From: Oscillospiraceae bacterium CM
Lineage (GTDB): Bacteria; Bacillota; Clostridia; Oscillospirales; Oscillospiraceae
Direction: 5' to 3'
Length of the DNA stretch: 64,000 nucleotides
NCBI GenBank assembly: GCA_022870705.1
Contig: CP072107.1
Span: 248,001 to 312,000, forward strand
The position numbers were made by a program, and so were the translations under genes. Below are positions 39,241 to 61,327 of this stretch, piece after piece. The notes under the pieces were generated by a model that saw only the letters and a list, made by a program, of their open reading frames with translations, searched no databases and was not told the DNA's origin. Position 1 is the stretch's first letter, and each line of letters starts with the position of its first letter.

Positions 39241-39277
39241 CGTATAATTACTTCGTGATTTACGAACTAATTATACG
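39241..39277. promoter_or_regulatory. 37-bp palindrome at the ATPase ribosome site
   Basis: Arms CGTATAATTACTTCGT and ACGAACTAATTATACG match at 15 of 16 positions around a GATTT centre. The right arm runs into the GGAGG ribosome site of the ATPase gene (ATG at 39292). It could be an operator bound by a dimer or an mRNA stem that controls access to the ribosome site. Confidence 0.65.
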
Positions 39278-39291
39278 GAGGCTTAGCTGAT

Positions 39292-40906: not shown

Positions 40907-40945
40907 CACAGGCAAGCATTTCACCTTGGTTCCGGATGATAAACC

Positions 40946-40996
40946 AGAAGCGTCTCAGAATACCTCCATGGGCCTTCTGAGACGCTTCTCTTTTTT
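40946..40996. terminator. Bidirectional terminator between convergent genes
   Basis: AGAAGCGTCTCAGAA and TTCTGAGACGCTTCT form a perfect 15-bp stem with a 14-nt loop, followed by CTTTTTTA. It lies between the TOPRIM-like gene and the minus-strand recombinase. Confidence 0.8.
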
Positions 40997-42644: not shown

Positions 42645-43497
42645 CTCCGATTTCCGTGTCTGTCTTGGTATGAAGCATGACTCTGCCGCTGCCATCAAGG
42701 GATATGAAGCTGATGAGGTCGGTGAAGTAGCTCTCGCTGAATTCATCCTGCGGCGTCATCATCTCGGCTCGTTTTTGCGCTATTGCGGCGGCGATATTCA
42801 TCTTCGTTTCACTCTCGCGGTAGAGCTGGCTTGCCATTTCTGTGGTCTTTGCGATTATGAGTTCCTCATTGGGATTGTCCCGTTCAAGCTCGAGACTGAT
42901 TTCGTTATTTAACTTCAGAACAGCCGGGGACAATTCCGGGCGCTTTTTCGGCCTTGGGACGAGGAGCTTTGTATTGGTGATAATTCGGTTCATCAGCACA
43001 TTGATCTTTTCGAGAAGCTGGGTATCTCCGATTCGAACCATGATTCCGCACTCGTCATTCGTACACATCCAGCTTTCCCTGATGCGGTGCTTTGCGCTGA
43101 CACGCCGCTTCATCGGCGCTCCGCACTCCTGGCAGCGGACATAGTCCCGCAGAAGGTTGATTGCAGCGGAATCCTTTTCGAAGGTGTTGCGCTGTCTGGC
43201 TGTCTTCAGACTGGTTGCTGTTTCATAGAGCGTTTCATCAATGATGGAGTCATATTCTTCATCGCCGGTGTACTTGGCGTTGTCGATGATTCTGGCGATA
43301 CGTGCTTTATCCCATGTGTCTGTACGCTCACTGTAAGGGATCTTTCGCCCTGTCAGCTCCTCGGCAATGGCTTTCAGCGACGCGCCGGCAATGTAGGCAT
43401 CGAATATCTCTCGAATCACATCGGCTTCGGTGTGTTCAATGACTGTTCTGCCATTTCGGATCGTATAGCCATATGGGATGTAGCGTATCTTTTTCAT
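42592..43497 (-). CDS. Recombinase-domain protein without a catalytic domain
   Basis: A 301-residue protein that begins directly with the recombinase (DNA-binding) domain: YIPYGYTIRNGRTVI, EADVIREIFDAYIAG, and then a zinc ribbon (RCQECGAPMKRR, CTNDECG). The resolvase catalytic domain is absent. It lies between two complete recombinases and overlaps the second, so it is maintained as part of a trio. It probably acts as a DNA-binding partner in the recombination complex. Confidence 0.85.
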   Translation of the reverse strand: MKKIRYIPYGYTIRNGRTVIEHTEADVIREIFDAYIAGASLKAIAEELTGRKIPYSERTDTWDKARIARIIDNAKYTGDEEYDSIIDETLYETATSLKTARQRNTFEKDSAAINLLRDYVRCQECGAPMKRRVSAKHRIRESWMCTNDECGIMVRIGDTQLLEKINVLMNRIITNTKLLVPRPKKRPELSPAVLKLNNEISLELERDNPNEELIIAKTTEMASQLYRESETKMNIAAAIAQKRAEMMTPQDEFSESYFTDLISFISLDGSGRVMLHTKTDTEIGDDDNASNQNTEKDNNGH

Positions 43498-43511
43498 GCC
43501 TTATCTCCTGT

Positions 43512-45062: not shown

Positions 45063-45074
45063 CTCCCTTCCTCA

Positions 45075-45092
45075 AAAAGTGATTATGTTTTC
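45075..45092 (-). repeat. Inverted copy of the 18-bp sequence at 32488-32505
   Basis: An exact reverse complement of GAAAACATAATCACTTTT, located 13 bp before the start of the first recombinase of the trio. Confidence 0.5.
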
Positions 45093-45112
45093 GCGGTTTT
45101 TGTATATGTTTT

Positions 45113-45139
45113 GGTCTGTATCATATTATGATACAGACC
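45113..45139. promoter_or_regulatory. Perfect 27-bp palindrome upstream of the recombinase trio
   Basis: GGTCTGTATCATA, a single T and TATGATACAGACC. It could be an operator or a recombination crossover site. It has no U tract and is not a terminator. Confidence 0.6.
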
Positions 45140-45217
45140 TCCGGTCGGCCGGCAACACACATTATACCGACACCTTTTCCGAATAGCTACACAATTATGA
45201 GGAAAAGAGAGAAAGAA

Positions 45218-45385
45218 TTATTCCGCCAAAACGATGTCCGCGCCGGTCAGTTGGAGGTAGTAGCTTTTTGCCCGCAGATACTCCTTTTGGGTAATGGAGC
45301 CGAGGCTGAGGATCTCCTTCAGAACGCTCATAATGAAGAGGTAGTTGGCGTTTTTGGTATTCAAATGAGATAGCATATGCCTCAT
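45218..45385 (-). CDS. SHOCT-domain-like small protein
   Basis: A 55-residue protein that ends with a short helical SHOCT-like motif (VLKEILSLGSITQKEYLRAK). The ATG at 45385 overlaps the stop of the upstream gene by 1 nt; an ATG at 45376 is the alternative. SHOCT peptides often accompany island proteins and may help oligomerisation. Confidence 0.6.
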   Translation of the reverse strand: MRHMLSHLNTKNANYLFIMSVLKEILSLGSITQKEYLRAKSYYLQLTGADIVLAE

Positions 45386-45957
45386 CACCTCGCTACGTGC
45401 TTGACGGTATCTTTCTCCCATTCTTCGGGATGATACTCGTCGCCGTAATCGTCCTCAACGGTAGCACCGTCGCTGTCATAGTCCTCCGGCTCGCAATCGC
45501 CAAAGTAGCCGTCTCTGATTTCCCTCGCGTAGCGGCGTTCCTCCAGGTCGTTCAGGAACCTGTCGACATCATAGTCGATACTCATCTTTTTGGTATCATA
45601 CCGACCTCGACCGGGAGACCATATCTGGACGCCCTGGTTTTCAAGACAGGTCATAATATCCAGACTCATGAGCAGAGTGGTGTTGAGCTGATCCATGCTC
45701 TTGATGATCAGAACATCAAAGGCATTGTCTTTGGCTGCCTGAAGCATTTGGGCCAATCCGTGACCGCCGTTTCTGCTGTTGAAATCGATGGAAAAGCCAG
45801 TAAGAGTGAAAGCCTGCTCGTTGGCATAGGAGCGCAGAGAGTCTTCCAGAGTATCATAGTAGGGGTCGAGGCTGCGAACGCTCCTGATATAGATCCATGC
45901 GCGTTTGCCAATATCCTCGGCAGCGGCGTTCTTTGAGCATTTGTTATCCTTGTTCAT
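45385..45957 (-). CDS. Degenerate resolvase-fold protein
   Basis: A 190-residue protein. Its first 125 residues follow the serine-recombinase catalytic fold (AWIYIRSVRSLDPYYDTLED, then DVLIIKSMDQLNT where active enzymes have TKSVSRFARN). The catalytic R-V-S is displaced and the Arg residues of the second motif are missing, so it is probably inactive. The C-terminus is very acidic and Tyr-rich. It is the second serine-recombinase-like protein without an active site in this window. Confidence 0.6.
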   Translation of the reverse strand: MNKDNKCSKNAAAEDIGKRAWIYIRSVRSLDPYYDTLEDSLRSYANEQAFTLTGFSIDFNSRNGGHGLAQMLQAAKDNAFDVLIIKSMDQLNTTLLMSLDIMTCLENQGVQIWSPGRGRYDTKKMSIDYDVDRFLNDLEERRYAREIRDGYFGDCEPEDYDSDGATVEDDYGDEYHPEEWEKDTVKHVAR

Positions 45958-47915: not shown

Positions 47916-48671
47916 CTAATCTCTGTCACACATAATTACTCCAACCGAACGCAGATACCCCGCTTGCTTTAGCCTGATTCGTACCGCTGTCCGAGAAACG
48001 TCAAAAATCTCTGTCAGTTCCGTTATCACGCCTGCAGTCTCTTTGGAGCCGTATCCATCCAGAATATAGCTGCCGGCATGATGACTTTTCATGACCGCTT
48101 GGGCCGTGGGGTAGAAGACGCTCGCAGGCATCAGCATGGCCGAGGCGAACTTGTCCGCCTGCCATTCCTTCCAGTCCTTTTCCGACCAGTACCCTCGTGG
48201 CTTTTGTCTGCTTGACTCAGCCTCTCTGCACATGATATAGCTGCCCGTTTTGCGAAGACAGTATTTCCGGTCATCTGGATAGTACATCTGCCGGTGGATG
48301 ATCCAGTGGGCGACCTCATGTGAAATGGTAAAGCGGCGACGGTGGTGGTGTTCCTCCGGCATGAGCCTCGCATCGATGACGATTGTGCCACTCATAATGA
48401 GCTCCTGTTGCAATTGCTTTTCGAGGGACATGAGCTCCATTTTATAATCATGGAAATTAATTAAGCCAAGGACAGTGCCGTGGGCGGATAGGTATCGATC
48501 TATGATCGTCAGACTGTAGGCTTCATCCGCCAACGCCTCAATATCGAGGGGCTGTGCCTTTTCCAGCATATATGGCGAGTATTCTCGCAGGACAAGCTCA
48601 GCAACGCTATCGAAGTCTTTGCTGCTGAACAGATACATGCCGTCGCTCTTTTGGGCTAATGGAATCTGCAT
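47916..48671 (-). CDS. ImmA/IrrE-family metallopeptidase
   Basis: A 251-residue predicted Zn protease with the active-site motif HEVAH in FTISHEVAHWIIHRQ near residue 115 and a downstream Glu-rich helix (ADKFASAMLMPASVFYPT), as in ImmA. This family cleaves XRE repressors to derepress mobile elements. An XRE gene lies 6 bp upstream in the same direction and is the likely substrate. The C-terminal part has an HTH-like pattern (IFDVSRTAVRIRLKQAGYL). Confidence 0.88.
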   Translation of the reverse strand: MQIPLAQKSDGMYLFSSKDFDSVAELVLREYSPYMLEKAQPLDIEALADEAYSLTIIDRYLSAHGTVLGLINFHDYKMELMSLEKQLQQELIMSGTIVIDARLMPEEHHHRRRFTISHEVAHWIIHRQMYYPDDRKYCLRKTGSYIMCREAESSRQKPRGYWSEKDWKEWQADKFASAMLMPASVFYPTAQAVMKSHHAGSYILDGYGSKETAGVITELTEIFDVSRTAVRIRLKQAGYLRSVGVIMCDRD

Positions 48672-48677
48672 GATAAT

Positions 48678-49040
48678 CTACCCTCCGTTATCTATAGACT
48701 CAATTATCCTGATCCACATGGTATCCGGAATGTTGCAGTCGCGCGCTTTTCGGAGCGCGACTCTCGCCAGATCCGACTGTTGGATGTAGGCTGTGAGGTC
48801 TGGGTACACACCCTGCCGCCGACCGCCGACCAGATCGTAGAGCATATTTTCATCATCCTGCGTCAGAAGAAGATATTTGATAAAGGCCGGGAGGAGTTTT
48901 TCAGAAGGAGTACGGTTGCCTTTCTCGATATCGTGAAGGTAGGGCGCAGCAATTTCTAACTCTGCGGCAAGACCGCGCAGGGTTTTTCCAAGCCGCTCCC
49001 GCTTCTCCCGTATAAAGCTGCCGAGCGTTAGCGTGTCCAT
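48678..49040 (-). CDS. XRE-family transcriptional regulator paired with ImmA/IrrE
   Basis: A 120-residue repressor-type protein with an N-terminal HTH: FIREKRERLGKTLRGLAAEL, PYLHDIEKGNRTPSEKLL. It lies 17 bp after the polymerase gene and 6 bp before ImmA, so polymerase, repressor and protease form one operon. This matches a DNA-damage-inducible switch in which ImmA inactivates the repressor. Confidence 0.85.
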   Translation of the reverse strand: MDTLTLGSFIREKRERLGKTLRGLAAELEIAAPYLHDIEKGNRTPSEKLLPAFIKYLLLTQDDENMLYDLVGGRRQGVYPDLTAYIQQSDLARVALRKARDCNIPDTMWIRIIESIDNGG

Positions 49041-49057
49041 GTTGAGCTTCCTTTCCG

Positions 49058-50296
49058 TTATTGATACATCATCCCCGGCATAAGCACTTTTTCTCGGCCA
49101 TCGGATGGCATTTTCAGGTTTTCCATGAGACAGGCGGAGTAAATGGCGCGTTTGCCAAATCTGCCGCGGATATCCTCAACCACCATGTCCAGTCGCGCGC
49201 GCTTTTCACGCTTGGCGGTATCCTCAAAAATGCTTGTCTGATACGGCGTATCGGCGGGAATGAGGTTGATTGCCCTGACCGTTACGGCGCGGACTTTATT
49301 TGTCCAGCGGAAGTTTTCCTCAAAGAGCTTTCTTGCTTTTTGGGCAATTTCCATCGGACTCTGCGATTGTGTTTCCAGCGGCCCCTGGTATTGCTTGAAA
49401 TTGAGGCTGTTATCCCGGATGGTAATCTGAACGCCCCTGGCCGTGAGCGAGTGGAGCCGCAGCCTGTGGCCGATGTCCTGGGACAGCTCCAGAATCACTC
49501 TCCAGACCTCCTCGTTGTTTTCAAGATCTGCGTTGCAGGTGATCCCGTGGCCGACACTCTTGACCGGGGACTCATAATCACCGGGCATCACTCGGGAGGT
49601 ATCGAGTCCATTGGCATAAACCCAGAGTGCGATGCCGTTCACGCCGAGAAGCCGCTTTAGAAAATCCTGTGAGGTATTGGCGATATCTCCGATAGTTCGT
49701 ATCCCATAGTTGTCAAACCTTTTTGCGGTAGCTCGTCCTACATAGAGCAGGTCTGAGGCAGGGAGAGGCCAAATTTTCTCTCTGAAGTTGTCTGCGGATA
49801 TTTCCGTGATCGCGTCCGGTTTTTTCAGGTCACTGCCCAGCTTGGCAAAAATCTTGTTATATGAAACGCCAATGCTTACGGTGAGGCCAAGCTCGGCTTT
49901 GACCGCCTGGCGGATTTCATCGGCTATCGTCATCCCATCTCCGAACGCCGTCCTGCTGCCGCTTATATCGCACCAGCATTCATCCATGCCATATCCTTCG
50001 ACTTGATCAGTATATCTCTCATAAATCGCCCGAGTCAGCTTGGAATATTTCAGATACTCGTCGTACTGCGGCGGCACCATGATAATGTCCGGGCAGCACT
50101 GGCGAGCCTCCCAATTGACCATCCCAGTTTTGACGCCGCGTTTCTTGGCAAGCTCAGATTTGGCAAGAACAATGCCGTGTCTGGATTCAGTGGAGCCGCA
50201 CACGGCAACGGCCTTTCCACACAGCGAAGGATTGAGCATCATCTCGACCGAAGCGTAGAAGCAGTTCAGATCGCTGTGAAGTATTACTCTCTCCAT
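49058..50296 (-). CDS. Y-family DNA polymerase (DinB/UmuC type)
   Basis: A 412-residue translesion polymerase. The start (VILHSDLNCFYASVEM) holds the first catalytic Asp, and YGMDECWCDISG holds the second Asp-Glu site. The HhH region reads IRTIGDIANTSQDFLKRLLG, and the little-finger domain follows to residue 400. This subgroup (SamB/ImpB-like) is frequent on mobile elements. The ATG at 50296 is 14 codons inside the open frame and begins the conserved part. A consensus promoter and three operator-like sites lie upstream. Confidence 0.92.
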   Translation of the reverse strand: MERVILHSDLNCFYASVEMMLNPSLCGKAVAVCGSTESRHGIVLAKSELAKKRGVKTGMVNWEARQCCPDIIMVPPQYDEYLKYSKLTRAIYERYTDQVEGYGMDECWCDISGSRTAFGDGMTIADEIRQAVKAELGLTVSIGVSYNKIFAKLGSDLKKPDAITEISADNFREKIWPLPASDLLYVGRATAKRFDNYGIRTIGDIANTSQDFLKRLLGVNGIALWVYANGLDTSRVMPGDYESPVKSVGHGITCNADLENNEEVWRVILELSQDIGHRLRLHSLTARGVQITIRDNSLNFKQYQGPLETQSQSPMEIAQKARKLFEENFRWTNKVRAVTVRAINLIPADTPYQTSIFEDTAKREKRARLDMVVEDIRGRFGKRAIYSACLMENLKMPSDGREKVLMPGMMYQ

Positions 50297-50345
50297 TTTT
50301 TCTCTCAAGCCTCTTGACAAAAGGTGCAACTTCATATAGTATTTA

Positions 50346-50437
50346 GGTGCAATCGGATTTCACCCTTGCTGTGATTATACGCAATCCGATTTCTCTTGTC
50401 AATACCATTTCAGAAAAAGGTGCAAACGAATTTCACC
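50346..50437. promoter_or_regulatory. Three related operator sites between polymerase and XRE genes
   Basis: Sites GGTGCAATCGGATTTCACC (50346-50364) and GGTGCAAACGAATTTCACC (50419-50437) are near-palindromes. A third, weaker site with GCAATCCGATTTC lies between them and overlaps the polymerase promoter spacer. The first site covers the polymerase transcription start and the third lies just before the XRE ATG, as expected for a repressor that controls both directions. Confidence 0.7.
50374..50402 (-). promoter_or_regulatory. Consensus sigma-A promoter of the polymerase operon
   Basis: On the minus strand TTGACA (50402-50397) and TATAAT (50379-50374) with a 17-bp spacer: a perfect consensus at both boxes. 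Such a strong promoter needs tight repression, consistent with the overlapping operator sites. Confidence 0.8.
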
Positions 50438-50452
50438 ACATGGAGGCGCGAT

Positions 50453-50872
50453 ATGAAATTTGGAGATAAGGTGCGGGAACTTCGTACACAAAAAGACCTG
50501 ACGCAGACGGAGCTTGGCAAGCTGGTTGGGGTAACGAAACGCACTGTCGTCGGCTGGGAGAACGAAGGCCGGTACCCACAAAAACGTAATTTATATGATT
50601 CGCTTGCAAAGGTGTTTGAGGTTCCCACAAGTTATTTGGCTTCAGAGGATGAGGCGTTCATCACTGACTCCGCTGAACGTTATGGCGTCAAGGGTGAACG
50701 GGACGCCAAGGCTGTGCTGACTCAGGCCGCTACCGTCTTTGCCGGCGGCGAGCTCAGCGACGAGGACAGGCTTGCGTTTATGACCGAAATCCAGCAGCTT
50801 TATCTGGAGTCCAAGGATATTGCGGCAAAAAAATTTACCCCCAAGAAGTACAGGAAGAACGACTCACAGTAA
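50453..50872 (+). CDS. XRE-family repressor
   Basis: A 139-residue protein with an HTH of RELRTQKDLTQTELGKLVGV, TKRTVVGWENEGRYPQKR and AKVFEVPTSYL. The C-terminal region resembles clostridial phage-type repressors (LSDEDRLAFMTEIQQLYLES). GGAGG lies 8 nt before the ATG. The frame is open 19 codons upstream, but that part covers the operator. It probably binds the three sites at 50346-50437 and represses the divergent polymerase operon and itself. Confidence 0.88.
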   Translation: MKFGDKVRELRTQKDLTQTELGKLVGVTKRTVVGWENEGRYPQKRNLYDSLAKVFEVPTSYLASEDEAFITDSAERYGVKGERDAKAVLTQAATVFAGGELSDEDRLAFMTEIQQLYLESKDIAAKKFTPKKYRKNDSQ

Positions 50873-50955
50873 TCAACTTTCTGTCCGTAATTTGGGACAG
50901 CTTTCGGTGTAGATTTTAGCTGTGAGATTATCTGTACACGATTGGAGGTGAGGAA

Positions 50956-51477
50956 GTGTCTGGCGATTACATACATCATGAAGTTCTCAGGGTTATGGCA
51001 AAATACAAGACCAATGATCCCTATGAGCTGCTTGACGCTCTCGGTGTCGAGGTCCGGGAATCGCGGGCCTATGGCCGAGATGGGCTAAAGGGGTATTGTT
51101 ATTTTTCCAAGCGCACGATTTTCGTCGTGCTCAATGCCTTTTTGTCTGAGGTGGAGAAACGGATTATTGCCATGCACGAGGCTGCGCACATCATACTGCA
51201 TCAGGATCAGATCAAGGTAGCTCCGATGAAAGATAATGTGATATATGACATGACGTCCAGAACGGAGTATCAGGCGAACCTGTTTACTGCTGATTTCCTC
51301 ATTTCTGACGATGAGGTCGAGGAACTGACGGCACAGGAGGATATGGACTATTTTCGCATATGTAAGGAGCTCTATGTGAGCCCAGATCTGATGTCCTTCA
51401 AGCTGTTCTCCATGATTCAACGCGGCTATCGTTATAATCTGCCGCAGGGGCTGAACAGTACATTCTTGAAAAACTAA
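50956..51477 (+). CDS. ImmA/IrrE-family metallopeptidase
   Basis: A 173-residue protein with the Zn-binding HEAAH in IIAMHEAAHIILHQD near residue 75 and the downstream YQANLFTADFLIS helix typical of ImmA. A GTG start follows AGGTGAGGA. Its partner is the XRE repressor 80 bp upstream, giving a second repressor/protease switch within 2 kb of the first. Confidence 0.88.
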   Translation: MSGDYIHHEVLRVMAKYKTNDPYELLDALGVEVRESRAYGRDGLKGYCYFSKRTIFVVLNAFLSEVEKRIIAMHEAAHIILHQDQIKVAPMKDNVIYDMTSRTEYQANLFTADFLISDDEVEELTAQEDMDYFRICKELYVSPDLMSFKLFSMIQRGYRYNLPQGLNSTFLKN

Positions 51478-51815: not shown

Positions 51816-53066
51816 TTGTCATATATACATAAGACCAGCTTTGATATTATCCAAGGAACCAACATCGATGATGAGCTGGAGAATTATTTCGAAGTGGACG
51901 AGCCAATTGCCCTCACGATCCAAGTATTGAACAGAAAAGGCTATATCACAGAATTTTGCTGCTGTGGCCATGCATTTGGAGATAGTGGTGAAGCTTTCGC
52001 AGATCCTGAAACCCCCAACTGTGAACATATCATCGTTGGAACCTACGCTACTGAAGAATTGCCCGACGGATCACATCGCATTTTATTTCACAATCGGCCG
52101 GAGCATAGTGCATACATTGCTTTTGCCAAGGATTCTGCTTTGCCCCCGGCCCCAGCCAACTGGTACTATCATGAGAACTCCCTCCGATGCGACTATCTCG
52201 GAGACATAGACGAGTTTGCGTTTTGGGAGACAATGCTGCGGTCAATGAGAGCTCTTTATATTTGGGCGTGTCATCTCCCTGTCGTCGGCACAGAACAACC
52301 TGCGAACTCTGAAAATGCCGACTTAATCTTTGCGATACAAAGCCATCTTCAAAGTCGTGGCCTGCAATATGAAAGCTCAATAAATGCAGCTATAAATGAA
52401 CGCTTGAAAGGCAAAAGCTACTGCCTGTCGGAGCATATAAAAGGGCTGTTATATTCGCTTTTGACCAACCAGACCTCATGGAAGCGAATTGTCCCTCATC
52501 TAAAAGAGATTGACGATGTGTTTTTTCAGTATGACGTTGACAAAATCAAAGCGACTTCGGCGGCGTATTTTAGTGACGCTTTGTTCGCAATCAAATGTGG
52601 TAACAGAAAGACTGCCGCACAGATGGCAGCACTGACCTACAATATCGAAGTGTTTGAGCGAATTTCAAATGTCTATGGCAGCATGGATGACTTTGTCATT
52701 TCGGCTCCGGCACACGAAATTGTTGCTTTACTTGCATCAAGTGGATCAGAATACAAACTACGCCAAGTGGGAGAAGCTCTTGCGTGGGAATATATTCGGA
52801 ACGTTGGAATTGATGGCGCAAAGCCCGATCTCCATCTCCGACGATTCTTCGGAAAGAGCAGAATCGGAAAATCCAACCGTGATCCCGCCACTGTGCAAGA
52901 TGTGATTGCCGCAGTAGAATCACTTGCGAAGTCTACCGGGTTATCTATGGCGTCCATAGACAACTTAATTTGGAGCTATTGCGCCGATGGATACGGTGAA
53001 ATATGCACGGCCACGCCGCATTGCACCGAATGTGCAATACGAGCATTTTGCAACCGTGAACGTTGA
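51816..53066 (+). CDS. HhH-GPD/FeS glycosylase-like protein with a Cys-rich N-terminal domain
   Basis: A 416-residue protein. The C-terminal 130 residues resemble a helix-hairpin-helix DNA glycosylase: EALAWEYIRNVGIDGAKPDL, HLRRFFG, then NLIWSYCADGYGEIC. Cys residues at 397, 403, 406 and 412 are spaced like an endonuclease III 4Fe-4S site but with five instead of six residues in the first gap. The N-terminal domain has EFCCCGHAFGDSG and may bind metal. The TTG at 51816 follows AGGAGG. Base-excision activity is inferred and the substrate is unknown. Confidence 0.6.
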   Translation: MSYIHKTSFDIIQGTNIDDELENYFEVDEPIALTIQVLNRKGYITEFCCCGHAFGDSGEAFADPETPNCEHIIVGTYATEELPDGSHRILFHNRPEHSAYIAFAKDSALPPAPANWYYHENSLRCDYLGDIDEFAFWETMLRSMRALYIWACHLPVVGTEQPANSENADLIFAIQSHLQSRGLQYESSINAAINERLKGKSYCLSEHIKGLLYSLLTNQTSWKRIVPHLKEIDDVFFQYDVDKIKATSAAYFSDALFAIKCGNRKTAAQMAALTYNIEVFERISNVYGSMDDFVISAPAHEIVALLASSGSEYKLRQVGEALAWEYIRNVGIDGAKPDLHLRRFFGKSRIGKSNRDPATVQDVIAAVESLAKSTGLSMASIDNLIWSYCADGYGEICTATPHCTECAIRAFCNRER

Positions 53067-53170: not shown

Positions 53171-54205
53171 ATGAAAATTGAAATGGGTGAATCCCTTATT
53201 TACTCGTGGCTACGCCACGAAAAACAGTGTCAATTGGCACAGACCAACTGGAAGGCATCCCCTTTTTGGGCGATTGACAGCCGAAATGACCTACAAATGC
53301 TTGCCGACAAATTCTCGCAGTTTTATTTAGACAAGCATCAGTTTGATATTTTCAAAGGCTGTTCTCTTGAACAGTTCATAAAGCAGGCTGAAATAGATGC
53401 CATTGGCATTGCGTATTCCCAATCCGCACAAAGTATTTATGCTGTTGACGTTGCATATCACGAAGGTGGGTTGAATTACGGCGATAAGGAGAGAACGCTA
53501 ACAAAGATCATCCAAAAATGTGTTCGCACGGCATTGTGCTTATATGCCTTTTTCAATATTGCTACTGGAGAGATTGTTTTCGCATCCCCCAAAATTAACC
53601 CGGCGATTGAGAAAGAGCTGTCTCCCATGTTTTCGGAGCTGACAGCACTGTTCTCGCAGCTTGGTTTGGAGTTTATCGCAACTCTATTCTGCAATGATAC
53701 TTTTTTAAGCGGGATTATTCAGCCTGTGCTGGAAAAGGGTACGAGCGTCGCTGACACATCGGAGTTGTTTCTGCGCAGCGTCCAAATGTATCAGATGTTT
53801 GCAGGGAAATCCGAACCCACTCGGGCAAAGATATCAAAAGCGCAGATTGCTACTCGTCAATCAGACCAGCAGTTGAGTGCAAATATCAACGAGGGAAAGG
53901 CAATTGATCGCATTCCAAAGTGGGCGCTTAGCCCGGAACAAAACAATTATAAGATCATTCGCGCTTACTACCAGCTCTTAGGTGAACGTGGAATGGTTAC
54001 TCGTCCCGAGCTTGAAGCCCTTTGCCAGAGCCAAGCTGATCACCCCGATGTATATGTGAGAGATTTCAGAGGTAATTTTGCTTCGATGAAAACAGACAAA
54101 GGGAAAAGTCATGGTAAGGTCTTCATCGATGATGGTTATAATGTGCGAGTCTGGAGCACCGTATCTGAGATTCTGGAGCAGAACCGCAGCCTGTTCTTGG
54201 CGTAA
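53171..54205 (+). CDS. Conserved protein, possible restriction-endonuclease fold
   Basis: A 344-residue protein. The region around residues 75-100 (EIDAIGIAYSQ, then YAVDVAYHEGGLNYGDKE) has the Asp and VDVAYHE strand that could form a PD-(D/E)XK-like core, but the Lys is not obvious. The C-terminal 90 residues look like a small winged or wedge domain ending VWSTVSEILEQNRSLF. No family name was recognised. It is co-directional with the glycosylase-like gene. Confidence 0.5.
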   Translation: MKIEMGESLIYSWLRHEKQCQLAQTNWKASPFWAIDSRNDLQMLADKFSQFYLDKHQFDIFKGCSLEQFIKQAEIDAIGIAYSQSAQSIYAVDVAYHEGGLNYGDKERTLTKIIQKCVRTALCLYAFFNIATGEIVFASPKINPAIEKELSPMFSELTALFSQLGLEFIATLFCNDTFLSGIIQPVLEKGTSVADTSELFLRSVQMYQMFAGKSEPTRAKISKAQIATRQSDQQLSANINEGKAIDRIPKWALSPEQNNYKIIRAYYQLLGERGMVTRPELEALCQSQADHPDVYVRDFRGNFASMKTDKGKSHGKVFIDDGYNVRVWSTVSEILEQNRSLFLA

Positions 54206-54232
54206 TCACACCACGTGATGAGTGGAGGGAAA

Positions 54233-54949
54233 ATGGAAAATATCATATACGAGCGTAACTATGAGGAAGAACATCGTCGGCATGATGGGAATGATACCGC
54301 ATCCACAATATTTGAGATTGCCACTGATGGTGGGTTCATCGCGGCGTATGCTGATGCGATGCAGGCGATTCCCAAGATAGTCGTTCCCGCCGATAAAGAA
54401 AACTACGAATACTTACTTCAACGGTCAGATGAGCTTGCGCAGCGATGGAGCGGAAAGGTGCGCGGTGTTGTGAACTACGAAAAATGGGAAGCCACCATTG
54501 ACCTGCTTCTCCCATTTGCCGAATTTTGTGATCGTGACGATCTGAACCTCCTGAAAGAATTTGCCGACAGATCCCATTCTATTACTTTTCAGACGAACGA
54601 TGATGGGAGGCTCCGGATACATATCTTCATCTTTTATTTTGAAGAGCTTGCCGATAAGGGTGAGATTTTTAAATCGATTCTGCGCAACAGGCAAGACCTT
54701 ACCGCGCTTTTGGAGCAGTACAAGGAAAAGAATCCGATCCTTTTTGAAAGCGACGATGAATACGATAATCTTGATGATTCTGAGCAAGTCGAACTGATGA
54801 CATGGTTTGTAGAAACCTGGGCTGCAGCGACGGGAGAAAACAAGGAGAGTATCGCGTCTGCGGTTTTGTACGAGATGCGTCATGATTATAAGAATATGAT
54901 CCGAAAGATTCTTGATTTAAAGAATAAACTTGACGGTGATACAGAATAA
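54233..54949 (+). CDS. Acidic protein of unknown function
   Basis: A 238-residue helical, acidic protein without recognised motifs. GTGGAGGG precedes the ATG by good spacing; it starts 28 nt after its neighbour and ends before a terminator, so it closes the plus-strand operon that begins with the XRE repressor. Confidence 0.5.
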   Translation: MENIIYERNYEEEHRRHDGNDTASTIFEIATDGGFIAAYADAMQAIPKIVVPADKENYEYLLQRSDELAQRWSGKVRGVVNYEKWEATIDLLLPFAEFCDRDDLNLLKEFADRSHSITFQTNDDGRLRIHIFIFYFEELADKGEIFKSILRNRQDLTALLEQYKEKNPILFESDDEYDNLDDSEQVELMTWFVETWAAATGENKESIASAVLYEMRHDYKNMIRKILDLKNKLDGDTE

Positions 54950-55101: not shown

Positions 55102-56499
55102 TTAAGCCTTTTTGAAGGTCATCTGCTTGGCCCAGATTCCCTGTTGGATGTTCACCGCTTTGTACCCAGCTTGCACCCAGGATTTGCACTGCGTATGCGA
55201 ACCGCCGGGGCTCCACCACATCGTATAGGTGCCGGCACTTTTCGGCAGCGCAAATCCAAGGATTTTTTCCAGCTCAGAGAAGGAAAGTGTGACGGTATCG
55301 CTTGATTGCAAACAGAGGTAACGGTAGAGCGGTTCATATTTCCCGAGCGATGGTTGATTTTCCCGAGCCGGAGTGTTCGGCCGTTCGGGTTCTTCCGCTG
55401 TCACGGTTAAACCGCAGAGCCTTTGGAGGAACACCATTTCGGATTCCGTCAAGCCTTCCGCATCCAGCCCCTGCTTCAGCCATAAGCCGCTTGTGCGGAT
55501 CTCTATTTCAGGGCTGTATTTGCCTGGCCATTTTTCTCCCGGCCCAAAATCGCTCGTATGGTTTAGGGTTGAAATGATTGCTTCTTCCAGCCGCAGACGC
55601 TGGCCTTTTTCCGGAACGGGAAACGCTGTAAAGGTCAGATGACTCCGCATATAATCGCTGACACGCCGCTCCGTGTCGGCATTTTTTATGGAGTCAATAT
55701 ATTTGTAGTTAGCCGGCCTTGAAGTGTCCAAAGTCCATATGGACAGATATGGATCGTGGTGCGCATTCAGTATGGCCTTTCCGATATTTTTGCGGAAAAT
55801 GCTGCTGTTGTGGTTTTCCCGCACAAAGTGGTCGGTTAGCCGCCGTTTGAGCCTATTGGGGGAAGTATGCGTGCCGACACGAACGATCCTGTCCATGCTG
55901 TGATAGAACTCGCCGGTTTCATAGACAATATAGATACCATTGTTGAAAGGGAGCAAATTAATTTGTTCCCATGTATATCTCGGCATTTTGTGAAACAACG
56001 CATGGAGACGCACCCCCAGAGAGACCGCACCGATATTTTCCGATTCCCTTCGTGAGTAATGACGCTCTGGTTTACGGACGGCCTCCTTGGTACATAGCTG
56101 CGATTTCAAAAAGGCCATCCGCTCACCCATACGCATTCCCGCCAGCGGTAGACTGCAGTGCGGCAGTTGATTCTGAAGATCCCGGCAATAGTAGCTACCA
56201 GCGAGAAGAATAAAGTCATCATCTTCCAAACTACACTCATGTGCGAGCGCAGTCAGAACATTATGAGCCCACTCAAGCTGCTGCTTGCGGGGCATAGCAT
56301 TCAGCGTTTGATCGTATGGGGCAATCACTCTATCTTCCGGCACGAGGCCATATTTTGCAGAAAGAATGTAAACTTTATCAGCAGTTTTCTTGGCATATTG
56401 ATACGACATGGAAAAGAGCGTGCTGGCGGAGTAAAGATCACGCGCCGCACATGGATACGGCTTCTTTTCCTTACTGCAGGATATCAACGCAATTGTCAT
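55102..56499 (-). CDS. DUF6884 / GIY-YIG-like / DUF7662 fusion protein
   Basis: A 465-residue protein with three parts. The first 150 residues follow the DUF6884/YaaA-like pattern (ALISCSKEKKPY, AARDLYSASTLF, YILSAKYGLV). Residues about 185-350 begin NNGIYIVYETGEFY and continue RIVRVGTHTSPNRLKRRLTD, resembling a GIY-YIG nuclease. The last 80 residues (YEPLYRYLCLQ, LSFSELEKILGFALPKSA, MWWSPGG) match the DUF7662 DNA-binding-like domain. The ATG at 56499 follows GGAGG by 9 nt. It is the last gene of the minus-strand operon. A DNA-cleaving role is likely but unproven. Confidence 0.65.
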   Translation of the reverse strand: MTIALISCSKEKKPYPCAARDLYSASTLFSMSYQYAKKTADKVYILSAKYGLVPEDRVIAPYDQTLNAMPRKQQLEWAHNVLTALAHECSLEDDDFILLAGSYYCRDLQNQLPHCSLPLAGMRMGERMAFLKSQLCTKEAVRKPERHYSRRESENIGAVSLGVRLHALFHKMPRYTWEQINLLPFNNGIYIVYETGEFYHSMDRIVRVGTHTSPNRLKRRLTDHFVRENHNSSIFRKNIGKAILNAHHDPYLSIWTLDTSRPANYKYIDSIKNADTERRVSDYMRSHLTFTAFPVPEKGQRLRLEEAIISTLNHTSDFGPGEKWPGKYSPEIEIRTSGLWLKQGLDAEGLTESEMVFLQRLCGLTVTAEEPERPNTPARENQPSLGKYEPLYRYLCLQSSDTVTLSFSELEKILGFALPKSAGTYTMWWSPGGSHTQCKSWVQAGYKAVNIQQGIWAKQMTFKKA

Positions 56500-56545
56500 C
56501 GTCCATGGCCTCCAATCACAATGCTTTACATACGTCAAAACCAAA

Positions 56546-56698
56546 CTAAACAGCGCTATTTGTGCGCCGCCGGAGATGAACTCCCTTGCCGCATTGTGTA
56601 TTCTTCTCGGAAAGGCTCATCAACTCGACCGGGCAGCCCGGCGCGTCGTTCCGGCTGCCGCCGATGAGGCTGCCTATGGTCGAATCCTGAAGGCTCAT
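56546..56698 (-). CDS. 50-residue peptide coupled to the PD-(D/E)XK gene
   Basis: A frame whose ATG overlaps the stop of the PD-(D/E)XK gene (ATGA) and runs for 50 residues: MSLQDSTIGSLIGGSRNDAP, then GCPVELMSL, ending with a basic RRRTNSAV. It contains two Cys residues. It fills most of the 195-nt gap before the next gene. It may be a small partner or a chance frame; no homologue was recognised. Confidence 0.35.
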   Translation of the reverse strand: MSLQDSTIGSLIGGSRNDAPGCPVELMSLSEKNTQCGKGVHLRRRTNSAV

Positions 56699-57750
56699 GT
56701 TTCACCTGCCTTTTCCTTGCAGTACAGCATGAATTGTTCGAATCCGTCAACCGCGCTTTGAAGGCTGTTCGTCAATTCGATACCGGAGATGTCCTTTCGC
56801 GGCTCACGCCATATGGTTCCGACTGTCATGGTTTTTCCGCTTGAAAGTCTGAAAGGCTTGAAATATCCGAATTGTTCAAGGTCATACTTCCATTCATGCG
56901 TGTTATTATATGCAATAATGTCTTTCAATTCCGAAGGCTTGAAGCTTTGCACATCGTTCTCAATAGACAGCTTGACACATATGTTGATTGCGCCATTGTT
57001 AAACTCCATCTGTAGATATGGGTAAAATTCTACCGCACCATAATATAGCGCTGTCCGCGGAAACAACCACATACCATAGAAGCCGCCAGAAGGATTGGCA
57101 ACATACCCGTAATTAAATGCACCATCAAGCGACCCGAACCGAAAATCAGCAGCTTTTTTTAAATCGTCATAATAACCTTGTATCATCTTCCAATCCCACT
57201 GTTCGACGGGTAGAATTTTGTACCTTTGGGTTTCGCTTTCGAAGGTATTATAATAATCAAGATAATCGAGAAAAATATCGCTTGTCATGCCGGAGCTATT
57301 GGCGTTTAAGATGGACAGTATACGTTTGCGGTCAAAGACAGCATATCCCGCTTTTTCGGCGTTGGATGTGTCGCTTTCAAAGCCCGTTTTGTAATAGACA
57401 CCGTAGATCAATTCCGGGCTTACGCCCTCACTTATCAGCAAATCCTTGTAGCGTGAAAGCTGTTCGTCGTGATCGCTCGTAAATGTCTTATCTTCAACAA
57501 TAATCTTATATCCGCCCTCCAACGTGAGCAAGACGTCAATTTTCCCATGTTGTCGCTCTATATTGGACACGTAAATCTCACCGTCTTCCAAAGTCTTAAT
57601 CGGCGGCACAAATTGCTTGAGAAAGGCGACGGCGCAACGCCTGAGCGCCTTGTCTTTTTTTACGTCCTTCATGGCATACGACATCAGCCAACACAAAAAA
57701 GCATCCTGCGACAGTTCGGATGTGGCGTATGTAAACAGGTTATTCTTCAT
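56695..57750 (-). CDS. PD-(D/E)XK nuclease-superfamily protein
   Basis: A 351-residue protein. Its N-terminal half has a PD-(D/E)XK active site: Asp in GKIDVLLTL and Glu-Asp-Lys in YKIIVEDKTFT, followed by the HDEQLSRYKD helix, matching the PDDEXK_4 type. The C-terminal half is beta-rich with many aromatic residues (YGMWLFPRTALYYGAVEFYP). It lies 75 bp after the nitrilase-fusion gene in the same operon. A defence nuclease is the likely reading. Confidence 0.72.
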   Translation of the reverse strand: MKNNLFTYATSELSQDAFLCWLMSYAMKDVKKDKALRRCAVAFLKQFVPPIKTLEDGEIYVSNIERQHGKIDVLLTLEGGYKIIVEDKTFTSDHDEQLSRYKDLLISEGVSPELIYGVYYKTGFESDTSNAEKAGYAVFDRKRILSILNANSSGMTSDIFLDYLDYYNTFESETQRYKILPVEQWDWKMIQGYYDDLKKAADFRFGSLDGAFNYGYVANPSGGFYGMWLFPRTALYYGAVEFYPYLQMEFNNGAINICVKLSIENDVQSFKPSELKDIIAYNNTHEWKYDLEQFGYFKPFRLSSGKTMTVGTIWREPRKDISGIELTNSLQSAVDGFEQFMLYCKEKAGET

Positions 57751-57825
57751 GCTTCTCACCTTCAAAAGAGCATTGCCTTCGCATTTTCCATATAGAGTTC
57801 GTTATGAAATGCAAAAGTACTCTTT

Positions 57826-60108
57826 TTAATCAACTTTTTCAAAGGTTGTCTTTTCATTGGATATCCGCTTGCATTCACCGGCCAGCCATGCGTAATTTGT
57901 CCGCCAATCAGCTTTGCAGTAGTCACCCTTGTTTTTCCAGATGGCTTCCGGGCCTGACATTCTCGATAGATCCAAGCCATACAGCCCGTTTACAGGCTTG
58001 ACTACCTGCGCGGTCTTATTGCGGCCTGTTTGATAACATTCATTGCTGCTGTCTGATTCTAAAATGACCGCGCAGAAGTTCTCCATAGCTCGAACCTTTA
58101 GAACAACGGACAGGCGGCTCGAAAAGACGTCGGGCGTCAACCCTTTGTACCTGCATATAAGGATATAGCGTTTGTTGATAAATTTGCTCAATTTGGGCGA
58201 GTACAACAGCGGTAAAAAGGACTCAGCATGAAAAATTCCCTCGCCGTCAACGACGCAAAACACGATATTATCGTCCTTGTGTGGGTAAATAAACAGATTG
58301 CCCTCAACGGCATCGGCCTTATCCAGAATGGAAGTAACATTACCAACCGGAATAAAAAAATCCTGCTTTTTATTCTCTGTTTTTAATTGATTCAGACTGG
58401 TGTCGCACCCGTCCGCATGGTCGTCCGCAGTGAGATCATAGAGATAAACGCCACCCGGTTCATTTGTATGCGTTGCCGCTATGTTCGCAAGGGTAGGATG
58501 AAGCTCCTTCCCGTTGCGATTAAAGCCGAACACATAGGAGTTACCTTGTTCGCCATCACCGCCCATGGTGACAAGCGTATAGCAGCGGTTTTCTATCGCC
58601 CTTGCCTGATTATACTTATACCATTTATCGTAGATGACGTTCCCTCCAGTGCTGTTGAGAATTACGTCGACACCCTGCACGCCGTACATTCTGCTGAACA
58701 GCGGGTGGTTACAGTCATAGCATATGGTCAGGCCAAGCTGATAACCCTTGAACCATATTGGTGTAAATAGAGTCTCTGCCACCTGATGGTAATCCTCCAA
58801 CTCAAAGGGAGAGAATGCGGTTGCGGTGTGCTTGAGGTAGATAGCGCATTGTGTCTCGTCCTTTAAAGCCGTCGCATTCGCAAAGACGCTGAAAATCGTA
58901 CCAAACTTATCGATGCCGCTTACAACCACCGCCATGCCCAAATCGCAGCTTAAGTCCACACAAGTGTCATATATTTTGTTGACATCTGCCTCATCTATGA
59001 TGTCGGCGTTTTCAATCATAGAGTGAAATGGCACCCAGCAATTCTCCGGAAAAACCAAAAGCTCCGCCTTTGACGCTCGAGCGGCAGCCATGGCCTTTGT
59101 AAAATCAGACAAATTTTGATGCTGTGCAGTCTGGAGGTACATCGCTATTTTCAGGCAAACACTCTTGTGAGGGTCAGAGTGCTTTTGCTCCATGTTGACA
59201 GGTGTAGTGCTGAGCAGTACGGCAAGTTGCTCCTGTGCATTTGGTTGCTCAAAATCGATTTGACCATGCATGATCCTGACGAGGCAATACTCGTGCTTTG
59301 CCGCCTCTATATCCCTCGTACTGTCGTAAAACGCTCGTACCTCGTCACGGTTTTCAGGATTGTTGTCCCTTGCCTGTATATCTGAACATGCCTGGATCCA
59401 CGACTCCCTATCAAAGCATAAGGGAATACTTCGGTATGCCTCCAACGATAACTTTCTCGCTTGGGAGAAATGCTGCCGTTCATCGTATTCAATGATGAGC
59501 TTATGGCTCTCGCACACAAAATCGCAACGCAAGGGGATGTTCTTTTTTGCAAAATCCGTTTTCCCACGGTATGCGGCAAGCGCTTTGTAAAGTGGGATAT
59601 ACTCACCATCAATGGCATCCGGAGTTTTGAGCCACGGAAAGGTTCTTTCACAGACAATATCACCGGAAAACATACGGTTCAGCAGAAGCTGAAGGGCATT
59701 TTTTTGCTCGATTACGCCCTTGCTGGGAATGGTAATTTTATAGTTAGGTGAGTGTTCTTTGGCCAGGGACTCTGTCGGCTGCGGTAAAGCACCCTTTACT
59801 GGCGCCTTCCTTTGAGCAGCATCCCCTGTCTTTGCATCTTTTGAGCTTCCTATGTAAAAAATCTCAAAGCCCAGCCGCCGAAAAAAGCGGACGGTTTCTA
59901 TTCCGCCGGCATAATCCTCTTTACTGATTTCCGTACCGGTAGCAACCTTATATGCCATGCCGCGAATATGCTTCGCCGGCAGTTTCTTCCCAGCATAAAC
60001 AAGAAAAGTCGAGCGCGGGGCGGGGTATTCCGGACGCTCAGAGAGAAAATCAGATATCGCTTTTATCACATTTTCTCTTGTCACAATACTCCAATCTGCT
60101 TTTGCCAT
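57826..60108 (-). CDS. ScoMcrA-N-like / nuclease-like / nitrilase (CN-hydrolase) fusion protein
   Basis: A 760-residue multidomain protein. Residues 8-85 (FLVYAGKKLPAKHIRGMAYK, GGIETVRFFRRLGF) resemble the N-terminal head domain of ScoMcrA-type modified-DNA restriction enzymes. Residues about 130-285 hold a Vsr/PD-(D/E)XK-like core with Asp196 in RCDFVCE and Glu207 in IIEYDERQHF. Residues about 315-560 form a nitrilase domain with the Glu355 (VFPENC), Lys426 (YLKHTA) and Cys463 (TICYD) triad. The last 150 residues are unassigned. The ATG overlaps the upstream stop by 1 nt (TAATG). Confidence 0.72.
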   Translation of the reverse strand: MAKADWSIVTRENVIKAISDFLSERPEYPAPRSTFLVYAGKKLPAKHIRGMAYKVATGTEISKEDYAGGIETVRFFRRLGFEIFYIGSSKDAKTGDAAQRKAPVKGALPQPTESLAKEHSPNYKITIPSKGVIEQKNALQLLLNRMFSGDIVCERTFPWLKTPDAIDGEYIPLYKALAAYRGKTDFAKKNIPLRCDFVCESHKLIIEYDERQHFSQARKLSLEAYRSIPLCFDRESWIQACSDIQARDNNPENRDEVRAFYDSTRDIEAAKHEYCLVRIMHGQIDFEQPNAQEQLAVLLSTTPVNMEQKHSDPHKSVCLKIAMYLQTAQHQNLSDFTKAMAAARASKAELLVFPENCWVPFHSMIENADIIDEADVNKIYDTCVDLSCDLGMAVVVSGIDKFGTIFSVFANATALKDETQCAIYLKHTATAFSPFELEDYHQVAETLFTPIWFKGYQLGLTICYDCNHPLFSRMYGVQGVDVILNSTGGNVIYDKWYKYNQARAIENRCYTLVTMGGDGEQGNSYVFGFNRNGKELHPTLANIAATHTNEPGGVYLYDLTADDHADGCDTSLNQLKTENKKQDFFIPVGNVTSILDKADAVEGNLFIYPHKDDNIVFCVVDGEGIFHAESFLPLLYSPKLSKFINKRYILICRYKGLTPDVFSSRLSVVLKVRAMENFCAVILESDSSNECYQTGRNKTAQVVKPVNGLYGLDLSRMSGPEAIWKNKGDYCKADWRTNYAWLAGECKRISNEKTTFEKVD

Positions 60109-61001
60109 TATTTCAACCCCACTTCAAATTTGTCGTCATCGTACTTCCGGACAATGCACTTGATCTTATCCAACGGGTATGGCGCCTCCTCCGCGCCGTG
60201 ATACTCAATGCTCTCAATTCTGGCGACCGCTTCATGATTATCTATTCCTGCAAGGACGACCACGCGATCCCCTTCACGGAGTTCGTCATCGTCGGTCAGA
60301 TAGCAATAAGCTTTTCCGTATTCCTCAAACTGCACATTACAGAATATCAAATCTGACTGTCTGCGGCGAGGCTTGTTGTATATCCGCGTGTCGAACAGTT
60401 CACCCACGCCATAAAAGGATATAAACTCATAGATGTCTTTGATAAACTCCTCCCAATCACCGGGAAGACCATCCCTGTCAAATGAGCCGGTAATGACTTT
60501 GTCATTGCCGAGCTTTGTACGAATTTCAATTTCGTAGTCCCGCGTCTCCATCGGATTTTCGATTACATCGGGGGGATTGCCCTTTATATATGAAAGGGCG
60601 GACACGCTCATATCGTCAAGAAATCCGAAAACGCCTTCCTCCACATAGTATCGATGGCTAATGACACAACCGGAGCCGACACGCATGATATGCTCCAGCG
60701 TTTCCGTCTTGCGGTCGATGCTGAGCTGCTCGGAGTAGTCCCAAGTCGCATATTCCCATGTGGCATCAGGCGGGATGACGCCGGGCTTGATTTTTGTGAT
60801 TCGGTGATACATTACGACAATGCTGTCCAGCCTGTCCGGGTTGCCGTCAAAGAGCCATAGCTCCTGATTATCCAAGGTATCCCGTATCAGATCGGAAAGA
60901 GGCTCATCTTCGGTAGAGTCTTCAACCAGAGCACCGCTATAGCAGAAGTACTCGCCATCCGTATTGGTGATGGAAAGCTCCCACGAGCCGGCATCACACA
61001 C
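60108..61001 (-). CDS. Conserved protein, probably the 3' part of a frameshifted gene
   Basis: A 297-residue frame opening with GTG (GTG TGT GAT) without a ribosome site. The first residues, CDAGSWELSITNTDGEYFCY, lie mid-domain in proteins of this kind, and the preceding frame (60994-61287) supplies a plausible N-terminus. The rest is beta-rich with acidic patches; the end (LREGDRVVVLAG) resembles a small SH3-like barrel. Its stop overlaps the nitrilase-fusion start, so the two are coupled. The function is unknown. Confidence 0.5.
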   Translation of the reverse strand: MCDAGSWELSITNTDGEYFCYSGALVEDSTEDEPLSDLIRDTLDNQELWLFDGNPDRLDSIVVMYHRITKIKPGVIPPDATWEYATWDYSEQLSIDRKTETLEHIMRVGSGCVISHRYYVEEGVFGFLDDMSVSALSYIKGNPPDVIENPMETRDYEIEIRTKLGNDKVITGSFDRDGLPGDWEEFIKDIYEFISFYGVGELFDTRIYNKPRRRQSDLIFCNVQFEEYGKAYCYLTDDDELREGDRVVVLAGIDNHEAVARIESIEYHGAEEAPYPLDKIKCIVRKYDDDKFEVGLK

Positions 61002-61287
61002 GATCCCGCCTGTCTCGGAAGTATTGAACCGTTCTTTCGAGGAGCCATTGGGTGGTTTTCGCGTCTATTTTGGCGGCACTTCTTTTTTGCGACTGTCTCA
61101 GCATATTGGCCTCATCGAAAAAGAAACGAGAAATATATACCCTACCGTCAGCATGGATGGAAACACTCTGCCTTGCTTCCTCGCCCGCATCCGCAGGTCG
61201 GCTGAAAAAGCACTCCTCACAGCGGAGCAGCATTTTTGACGGTGTTCCAGTAAACCGGGGAACCACGGGATTTTCTTGTGTGGACAT
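60994..61287 (-). CDS. N-terminal part of the frameshifted gene
   Basis: A 97-residue frame with a proper start (AAAGGAG region before ATG at 61287): STQENPVVPRFTGTPSKMLL, RVYISRFFFDEAN, ending LLERTVQYFRDRRDRV. It overlaps the next frame by 8 nt. Joining the two frames near 61010 would give one protein of about 390 residues. A single-base indel, a programmed frameshift or an assembly error could explain the break. Confidence 0.5.
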   Translation of the reverse strand: MSTQENPVVPRFTGTPSKMLLRCEECFFSRPADAGEEARQSVSIHADGRVYISRFFFDEANMLRQSQKRSAAKIDAKTTQWLLERTVQYFRDRRDRV

Positions 61288-61327
61288 ATACGCCGCTCCT
61301 TTCAACGTGGCCTCTGACTGAATTTTG

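Follow-up and report, generated by a model that had tools for sequence, protein, structure and literature searches.

A single gene of Oscillospiraceae bacterium CM encodes a 760-residue protein that joins in one chain a head of the ScoMcrA type, a nuclease resembling Vsr, a domain of the nitrilase superfamily and a second, degenerate nitrilase half. The gene lies in the 64,000-nucleotide stretch analysed here (the window; GCA_022870705.1, CP072107.1, positions 248,001 to 312,000 of the forward strand). Catalytic residues are kept in both enzymatic domains among homologues, nuclease and nitrilase are paired in two bacterial phyla, the fusion is rare, and defence genes lie beside it at several loci. 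On the basis of sequences, predicted structures and analogy with known systems, we propose, with a probability of about 0.42, that the protein is a compact anti-phage enzyme in which a DNA-engaging nuclease is combined with an amidase acting as toxic effector. Its recurrence with preserved active sites in distant bacteria suggests a phage-defence enzyme that has not been described.

Domain architecture of the fusion protein

The gene and its domains have the following window coordinates.

57826-60108, minus strand: fusion protein, 760 residues (head, Vsr-like nuclease, nitrilase, degenerate nitrilase half), ATG start
59845-60090, minus strand: ScoMcrA-type head domain, residues 7-88 (match to 5zmm_B and Protein Data Bank profile match)
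59191-59736, minus strand: Vsr-like nuclease domain, residues about 125-306 (fold match to 1cw0 and 1vsr, invariant residues)
58414-59163, minus strand: nitrilase-superfamily (amidase-type) domain, about residues 316-565, with E355, K426 and C463 (PF00795 and fold)
57859-58392, minus strand: degenerate second nitrilase half, about residues 573-750, with R673, E676 and N677 invariant in 18 rows (hhalign)

A first-pass annotation of this DNA, made from the letters alone, had read a ScoMcrA-like head, a nuclease and a nitrilase in this open reading frame, and Pfam, structural models and profile searches establish that the fusion is real. The reported overlap of its start with the stop of the upstream gene (60108-61001) amounts to one shared base, TAATG.

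Structures were predicted for the full-length protein (10-sequence alignment, mean predicted local distance difference test score [pLDDT] 78.5, predicted template modelling score [pTM] 0.59; model numbering equal to protein numbering minus 1) and for its N-terminal head-nuclease part (34 sequences, pLDDT 87.3, pTM 0.63). The head of the N-terminal model aligns with 5zmm_B in VIA-align at Z 8.7 (root-mean-square deviation 2.9, 68 residues aligned, 32% identity), and ScoMcrA (5zmm_A) is also the top Protein Data Bank sequence match of the head-nuclease profile (E 0.0045), followed by 3hrl, an endonuclease-like protein (E 0.082). Residues 132-306 of the model align with the Vsr structures 1cw0 (Z 8.2, 112 residues, 3.2 Å) and 1vsr (Z 8.0), and the nuclease also matches the homing endonuclease I-Bth0305I (Z 7.2), on a scale where Z 7 to 8 is often reached by the best matches of unrelated proteins. 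Foldseek returned no match to this model at E ≤ 0.001, the E-values for Vsr being 1.0 and above; the ScoMcrA and Vsr assignments come from VIA-align and the profile search, not from Foldseek. Pfam gives the nuclease of the window protein sub-threshold matches only, to DUF7255 (24.3 versus 27 bits) and DUF559. Among eight head-nuclease homologues tested (homologous loci carry L numbers), DUF7255 exceeds its cut-off in six: L020, L023, L024, L026, L030 and L031. The reading of head and nuclease domains stands because it has independent support from the Protein Data Bank profile search and from these over-threshold matches.

PF00795 (CN_hydrolase) matches the third domain over residues 329-514 with 55.4 bits (cut-off 23.2; E 7.6e-15), and the best Protein Data Bank sequence match of the nitrilase profile is NitFhit, 1ems (E 4.4e-7). 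Structure prediction, which the first-pass annotation had proposed as a check, yields a nitrilase fold: about residues 316-632 of the full-length model match nitrilase-superfamily amidases and formamidases with a best Z of 20.2, at 11-23% identity in the fold alignments listed. NCBIfam names a nitrilase in the fusion protein only far below its cut-offs, and it gives no match for the other window proteins tested or for the GmrSD-type gene described below.

Not seen earlier was the degenerate second nitrilase half at residues about 573-750. Its hhalign comparison with the nitrilase domain covers 57 columns and reaches a score of 33.1, whereas none of 20 column-shuffled controls exceeds 19.6, and its motif LKVRAMENFCAVILES falls in register with KYNxARAIENxCYTLVTM of the nitrilase domain. 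No Cys-Tyr-Asp motif is seen by eye in this half, where the 57 aligned columns end short of the cysteine site. The half also has a cysteine, Cys691, that all but one of the 18 rows share.

Conservation of the active sites

Judged from residue conservation, both active sites are under constraint. The nuclease alignment comprises 34 rows, omitting L022 (unknown residues), L025, L035, the small L016 head piece and the L017 head; the nitrilase alignment comprises 18, omitting L010, L014, L015, L016 and L019 as cut or broken. Asp196 and Glu207, which the first-pass annotation had singled out, are invariant in 34 of 34 rows, as are D209, Q212 and H213. Further invariants are R254, D255, E256, D262, D266 and R278, and the domain has a motif of its own, EYDERQHF...RDExRA. 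The Glu355-Lys426-Cys463 triad, likewise noted before as intact, is kept in all 18 nitrilase rows. A search for homologues retaining both sets of residues had been recommended; they exist.

The cysteine is followed by Tyr-Asp in 17 rows and by Tyr-Glu in one. Cys-Tyr-Asp is typical of amidases rather than true nitrilases. The domain first called a nitrilase does belong to that superfamily, but its active-site motif looks amidase-like and not that of a true nitrilase.

Fused and split homologues

A single scan of 84,980 species genomes yielded 35 loci, to which L052 and L053 were added from whole-genome searches and L054 from a viral-contig scan. Twenty-three genomes or records, the window included, bear the nitrilase, and nuclease and nitrilase are fused or side by side in 21 of them. 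Twelve carry intact fusions (the window, L002-L009 and L052-L054), three carry damaged ones (L010, cut by a contig end; L014, frameshifted; L016, degraded), and six, all from Bacteroidales, carry split pairs (L011, L012, L013, L017, L018 and L021). The frameshift in L014 could be a sequencing error. Two partial loci have no visible nuclease: L015 begins at a contig edge, and L019 is a 240-residue fragment. The fused form occurs mostly in Bacillota and the two-gene form in Bacteroidales. A chance fusion or annotation artefact is ruled out because the intact fusions (L002-L009, L052, L053 and L054) and the six Bacteroidales split pairs recur; from these sequences, the pairing of nuclease and nitrilase spans two phyla and was kept.

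In a midpoint-rooted nuclease tree, all nitrilase-bearing rows included fall in one group (support 95/91). Also placed there are the fragment from L016 and L033 and L034, two nuclease-only rows on long branches. The six split pairs cluster as a single clade (99/98). Separate genes in Bacteroidales, and a head that can sit on the nitrilase, as it does in L017, would fit a protein with two uncoupled activities whose fusion reflects a benefit of each to one mobile element. However, the two genes of every split pair stay overlapping (by four bases in L017 and L021), adjacent or, in L018, separated by one small gene of 138 residues, and the pairs form a single clade; we regard uncoupled activities as highly improbable.

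Other head-nuclease proteins

Sequence comparison places the nitrilase-bearing proteins as one branch within a broader platform built on the head and nuclease. At eight loci (L020, L022, L023, L024, L026, L030, L031 and L036), from archaea, Chloroflexota, Planctomycetota and other hosts, the head and nuclease carry C-terminal modules with no Pfam nitrilase match at E ≤ 1, and the idea that these modules are hidden nitrilases was rejected, L031 excepted. Against the nitrilase profile, scores stay below the shuffle maxima for L020 with L036 (17.4 against 28.5), L023 (13.2 against 18.5) and L022 (11.2 against 19.0). L031 scores 22.2, slightly over the maximum of 20.1 in 20 shuffles, across only 14 columns, and a hidden nitrilase is not claimed. 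By eye, the C-terminal part of this protein (L031:9977-11908, Dehalococcoidia) shows nitrilase-like motifs without the Glu.

L020:1385-3112 (Bacillota) and L036:9983-11797 (Planctomycetota) have a common C-terminal module (30% identity, with GGF and GCHD motifs) that has no Pfam match and is possibly another effector. A different C-terminal module is present in the archaeal proteins L023:9968-12004, L024:9974-11782, L026:9941-11818 and L030:5386-7149. A short upstream gene family is common to L023, L025, L026 and L030, and a DUF2779-containing family adjoins L027, L028, L030 and L035.

These proteins bear on a further explanation, namely that the fusion is a restriction-type nuclease whose nitrilase module is an oligomerising scaffold, its chemistry being secondary. 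Nitrilases assemble into oligomers and filaments. The nuclease evidently needs no recognisable amidase, since the same head-nuclease occurs with modules lacking a nitrilase match at the eight loci, and inspection by eye suggests that the second nitrilase half is without a Cys motif. Yet E355, K426 and C463 are retained in all 18 rows, even where identity falls to 35%, which would be needless in a mere scaffold, and we consider this explanation unlikely.

Rarity, mobility and defence context

The fusion profile matches 3 of 398 genomes of the phylum, its own included, and the nitrilase profile 1 of 295 genomes of the order, namely its own. In a Bacteroidota sample the nitrilase profile matches 4 of 296 genomes: that of L012, the chosen centre, and three with single-domain nitrilase-type proteins (frames of 254-260 residues). 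Within the family, 21 of 200 genomes match; except in its own genome, the matches are confined to residues 292-562 at 21-39% identity, that is, to the nitrilase domain. Plasmid and phage collections contain no match to the fusion, and two IMG/VR contigs match, one of them apparently the L015 contig.

The fusion protein is probably mobile. Four serine recombinase genes lie within 12 kb at window 34201-45957, in the same island as the fusion gene, and perhaps mark a mobile-island border. Upstream of them (7631-12220) are genes for a metal-transporting ATPase and for DsbD and cupredoxin domains, perhaps for copper handling. Homologues of the convergent genes 53171-54205 and 54215-54949 occupy a similar position in Oscillibacter ruminantium (L009:19169-20950 and L009:20976-22010), so a longer block may have moved together.

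The window island holds a GmrSD-type gene (Pfam, PADLOC), and beyond the window, as read by eye, type I restriction genes are accompanied by one for a recombinase. Just past the window, at L055:7535-12460, pieces of type I specificity subunits are seen by eye on both strands around a tyrosine-recombinase-like gene, an arrangement that suggests an invertible specificity system. When 20 hand-picked neighbouring proteins were compared with PADLOC at E ≤ 1e-5, 14 gave matches, some of them weak (L007, L053), in a check with no control rate. They include BREX PglX, PglZ and BrxL at L009, AbiU at L004, type II restriction-modification at L015, type IIG and UzuA at L008, and UzuA at L054.

Proposed function

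We envisage that the Vsr-like nuclease, aided by the head, would engage a feature of invading or damaged DNA. This engagement would alter the assembly of the protein and free the amidase-type nitrilase from its degenerate half. The freed amidase could then hydrolyse an essential amide-bearing metabolite, of the NAD+ or glutamine type, and growth of the infected cell would cease. According to the DRT1 paper (PMC13275509), nitrilases usually work as assemblies whose active sites are partly covered by neighbouring subunits, so an inactive half within the chain could act as a gate or partner; by analogy, its role would resemble the lid or partner role of the DRT1 C-terminal residues in that paper. 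The fuller version of this model, in which a nuclease meeting foreign DNA switches on an amidase gated by the degenerate half and kills the cell through destruction of an amide-bearing metabolite, on a platform with interchangeable C-terminal effectors in bacteria and archaea, is more tentative, and taken as a whole it is doubtful.

Several observations weigh against a defence enzyme of this kind. Confidence in the full-length model is middling (pTM 0.59), and Vsr stands only modestly above the next rows in VIA-align, which reach Z 7.3 and 7.2. The fusion protein itself has no PADLOC match at E ≤ 0.1, the neighbours with defence matches come from the small hand-picked set, and the Bacteroidales flanks of L012, L013 and L018, read by eye only, show no obvious defence genes. 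In addition, the catalytic site of nitrilases is usually a tetrad that includes a second conserved Glu. The candidate for this residue, position 436, whose equivalence is uncertain, is not fixed (Glu in 9, Asp in 7 and Ser in 2 of 18 rows), so ordinary amidase activity is not assured.

Neighbouring genes and two further explanations

The genes around the fusion are as follows.

60994-61305, minus strand: 103-residue protein (open reading frame list; 61287, the limit given in the first-pass annotation, is an internal ATG)
60108-61001, minus strand: 297-residue protein whose stop overlaps the fusion start (open reading frame list)
56695-57765, minus strand: PDDEXK_4 nuclease, PADLOC candidate PDC-S26 (Pfam, 26.5 versus 22.3 bits)
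55102-56544, minus strand: fusion of DUF6884, PDC-M57B (GIY-YIG-like by motif only) and DUF7662 (Pfam, PADLOC)
51816-53066, plus strand: helix-hairpin-helix DNA-glycosylase-like protein, possible occasional partner (homologues beside the L017 and L021 pairs)

The first-pass annotation had presented an operon built around the fusion as the system, and had looked to homologues with the same neighbours. The neighbours instead change across loci. A whole homologue of the 297-residue protein is found only at L009, there joined to the 103-residue protein, while its C-terminal piece recurs near L008 and L054. A PDC-S26 gene accompanies one other homologue, L010, which it precedes by 4 bp, and DUF6884 is found with few. 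The four-gene operon is ruled out as a general unit because neighbours differ between loci.

The domains previously read in the two downstream genes were borne out in part: Pfam recognises PDDEXK_4, DUF6884 and DUF7662, but not GIY-YIG, for which 55102-56544 has no match at E ≤ 1; PADLOC PDC-M57B matches that stretch. This protein carries both PDC-M57A and PDC-M57B, whereas the fusion gene itself is no PDC-M57 member. Protein Data Bank sequence searches with 55102-56544 and with 51816-53066 gave nothing useful. Of 22 homologue genomes or records, 4 have DUF6884, in two cases elsewhere in the genome; 5 of 14 control genomes also gave a match, one over the cut-off. At L053 the homologue carries it as a C-terminal fusion (906 residues; 46.5% identity over 129 residues), and at L009 its gene follows on the same strand at a distance of 4.8 kb. 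At L020 it lies directly upstream of, and overlaps, a head-nuclease protein without a recognised nitrilase. DUF6884 and GIY-YIG-like genes are also found apart from the fusion, and G091, a family genome with no fusion match, has a DUF6884 protein. DUF6884 as an obligate partner is ruled out by the count of 4 in 22; going by its distribution, it looks like an optional one. In Bacteroidales, L057:1492-2482 and L059:1486-2466 hold a DUF6884 and GIY-YIG-like pair after a carbamoyl-phosphate-synthase-like gene (second gene and synthase by eye), and the pair may be a stand-alone candidate defence system.

DUF6884 invites the explanation that the fusion is a modified-base enzyme, its nitrilase acting on a nitrile or amide of phage DNA bases (of the 7-deazaguanine or carbamoylated-adenine type), its nuclease then cutting, and DUF6884, with a DpdC-type fold, serving as accessory. 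In its favour are the DUF6884 fusion at L053 and the presence of DUF6884 in the gene clusters of the window and L009, as well as a weak PADLOC match of the window DUF6884 protein to DpdC (E 1.3e-4) and the helix-hairpin-helix glycosylase-like gene that adjoins L017 and L021. The Pfam authors describe DUF6884 as YaaA-like, with its member YfjM among abasic-lesion interactors, and another paper labels dpdC a DUF6884 protein (PMC11701544/PMC11888242). The scattered distribution of DUF6884 just described, including its presence in G091, nevertheless argues against this explanation, as does the fact that no reader domain was found in the fusion. To our knowledge, moreover, nitrilases act on small molecules. 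A modified-base enzyme appears quite unlikely.

The glycosylase-like protein is also relevant to an explanation outside defence, in which the fusion would be a mobile DNA-repair or stress enzyme with a Vsr-like nicking domain and an amidase that serves nucleotide salvage. Vsr itself acts in repair, and both the glycosylase-like partner and the YaaA-like DUF6884 have repair links. The L017 homologue of 51816-53066 matches Ogg-HhH below the cut-off (E 1.7e-5, 24.9 versus 27 bits). Members of the family were detected in 3 of the 23 genomes or records with homologues (E ≤ 0.001) and in 3 of 199 phylum genomes (E ≤ 1e-15), the window's own genome included in both counts. The position beside the nuclease-nitrilase pair represents at most two independent cases, since L017 and L021 are near relatives, and in the window the gene is on the strand opposite to the fusion. 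The rarity of the fusion (1 of 295 order and 3 of 398 phylum genomes), the broken copies L014 and L016, and the restriction-modification, BREX and Abi neighbours fit defence better, and we judge a repair enzyme very unlikely.

The first 170 residues of 51816-53066 are unmatched by homologues, and a relative at L063 lies near a TatD-like gene (by eye). At window 47916-51477, regulator and M78-peptidase pairs flank a Y-family-polymerase-like gene (49058-50335; by eye).

Comparison with known systems

The anti-phage enzyme proposed here shares parts with several known proteins. The window genes 55102-56544 and 56695-57765 match the PADLOC candidates PDC-M57 (DUF6884 plus GIY-YIG-like) and PDC-S26; DUF6884 and GIY-YIG-like genes also occur without the fusion. 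The nitrilase domain shares its fold and Glu-Lys-Cys triad with Nit/NitFhit, formamidase and aliphatic amidase, but the second Glu is not fixed and a degenerate second half has been added. The nuclease shares its fold with Vsr (Z 8.0-8.2) and I-Bth0305I (Z 7.2), yet it has the EYDERQHF...RDExRA motif and is attached to a head and a nitrilase.

ScoMcrA, a type IV enzyme dependent on phosphorothioate or modified cytosine, has a homologous small N-terminal head. In its structure paper, this head is small, flexibly attached and given no function, while a formerly uncharacterised domain, renamed SBD, binds phosphorothioated DNA (PMC6224610). In contrast to ScoMcrA, the fusion has no Pfam match to SBD, SRA or HNH at E ≤ 1, and has no place for them: other folds take up residues 7-88, about 125-306 and about 316-750, and only linkers are left. 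The earlier description of a DNA-reading head is therefore not sustained. That the nuclease finds modified DNA was a guess, since the readers of ScoMcrA, its SBD and SRA-like domains, were not found in the fusion.

A parallel in design is DRT1, of the class 3 UG/Abi reverse transcriptases, which likewise combines in one polypeptide an enzyme acting on nucleic acid and a nitrilase with an intact cysteine. The window fusion differs in having a Vsr-like nuclease and a ScoMcrA head instead of a reverse transcriptase; no reverse transcriptase family (Pfam, E ≤ 1) and no PADLOC family (E ≤ 0.1) was found in it, and its chain is assigned to other folds. No DRT1 chain stood among the Protein Data Bank matches listed, an absence that carries no weight. 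According to the DRT1 paper, immunity depends on the nitrilase cysteine, being lost in the mutant C1116A, and the findings fit abortive infection; the paper also calls nitrilases uncommon among antiphage systems and leaves the nitrilase substrate open (PMC13275509). A related reverse transcriptase-nitrilase system is also known in defence (PMC9122126).

The first-pass annotation knew of no system joining a nitrilase to a DNA nuclease, and none was found by full-text literature searches, judged on titles and abstract openings, in a library without most subscription journals and all bioRxiv preprints outside PubMed Central. As a toxic part, however, the nitrilase is already known from DRT1 and the related reverse transcriptase-nitrilase system; it is the nuclease partner that would be new to nitrilase-effector defence, and there is a real chance that the fusion represents a new kind. 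If the proposal is right, a second, unrelated nucleic-acid enzyme would have been combined with a nitrilase, which would suggest that amide hydrolysis is a wider immune output. The 760-residue single protein, or its two-gene Bacteroidales version, would then be a simple place to seek the substrate. The head-nuclease platform with its varied C-terminal modules also points to further unstudied effectors, archaea included.

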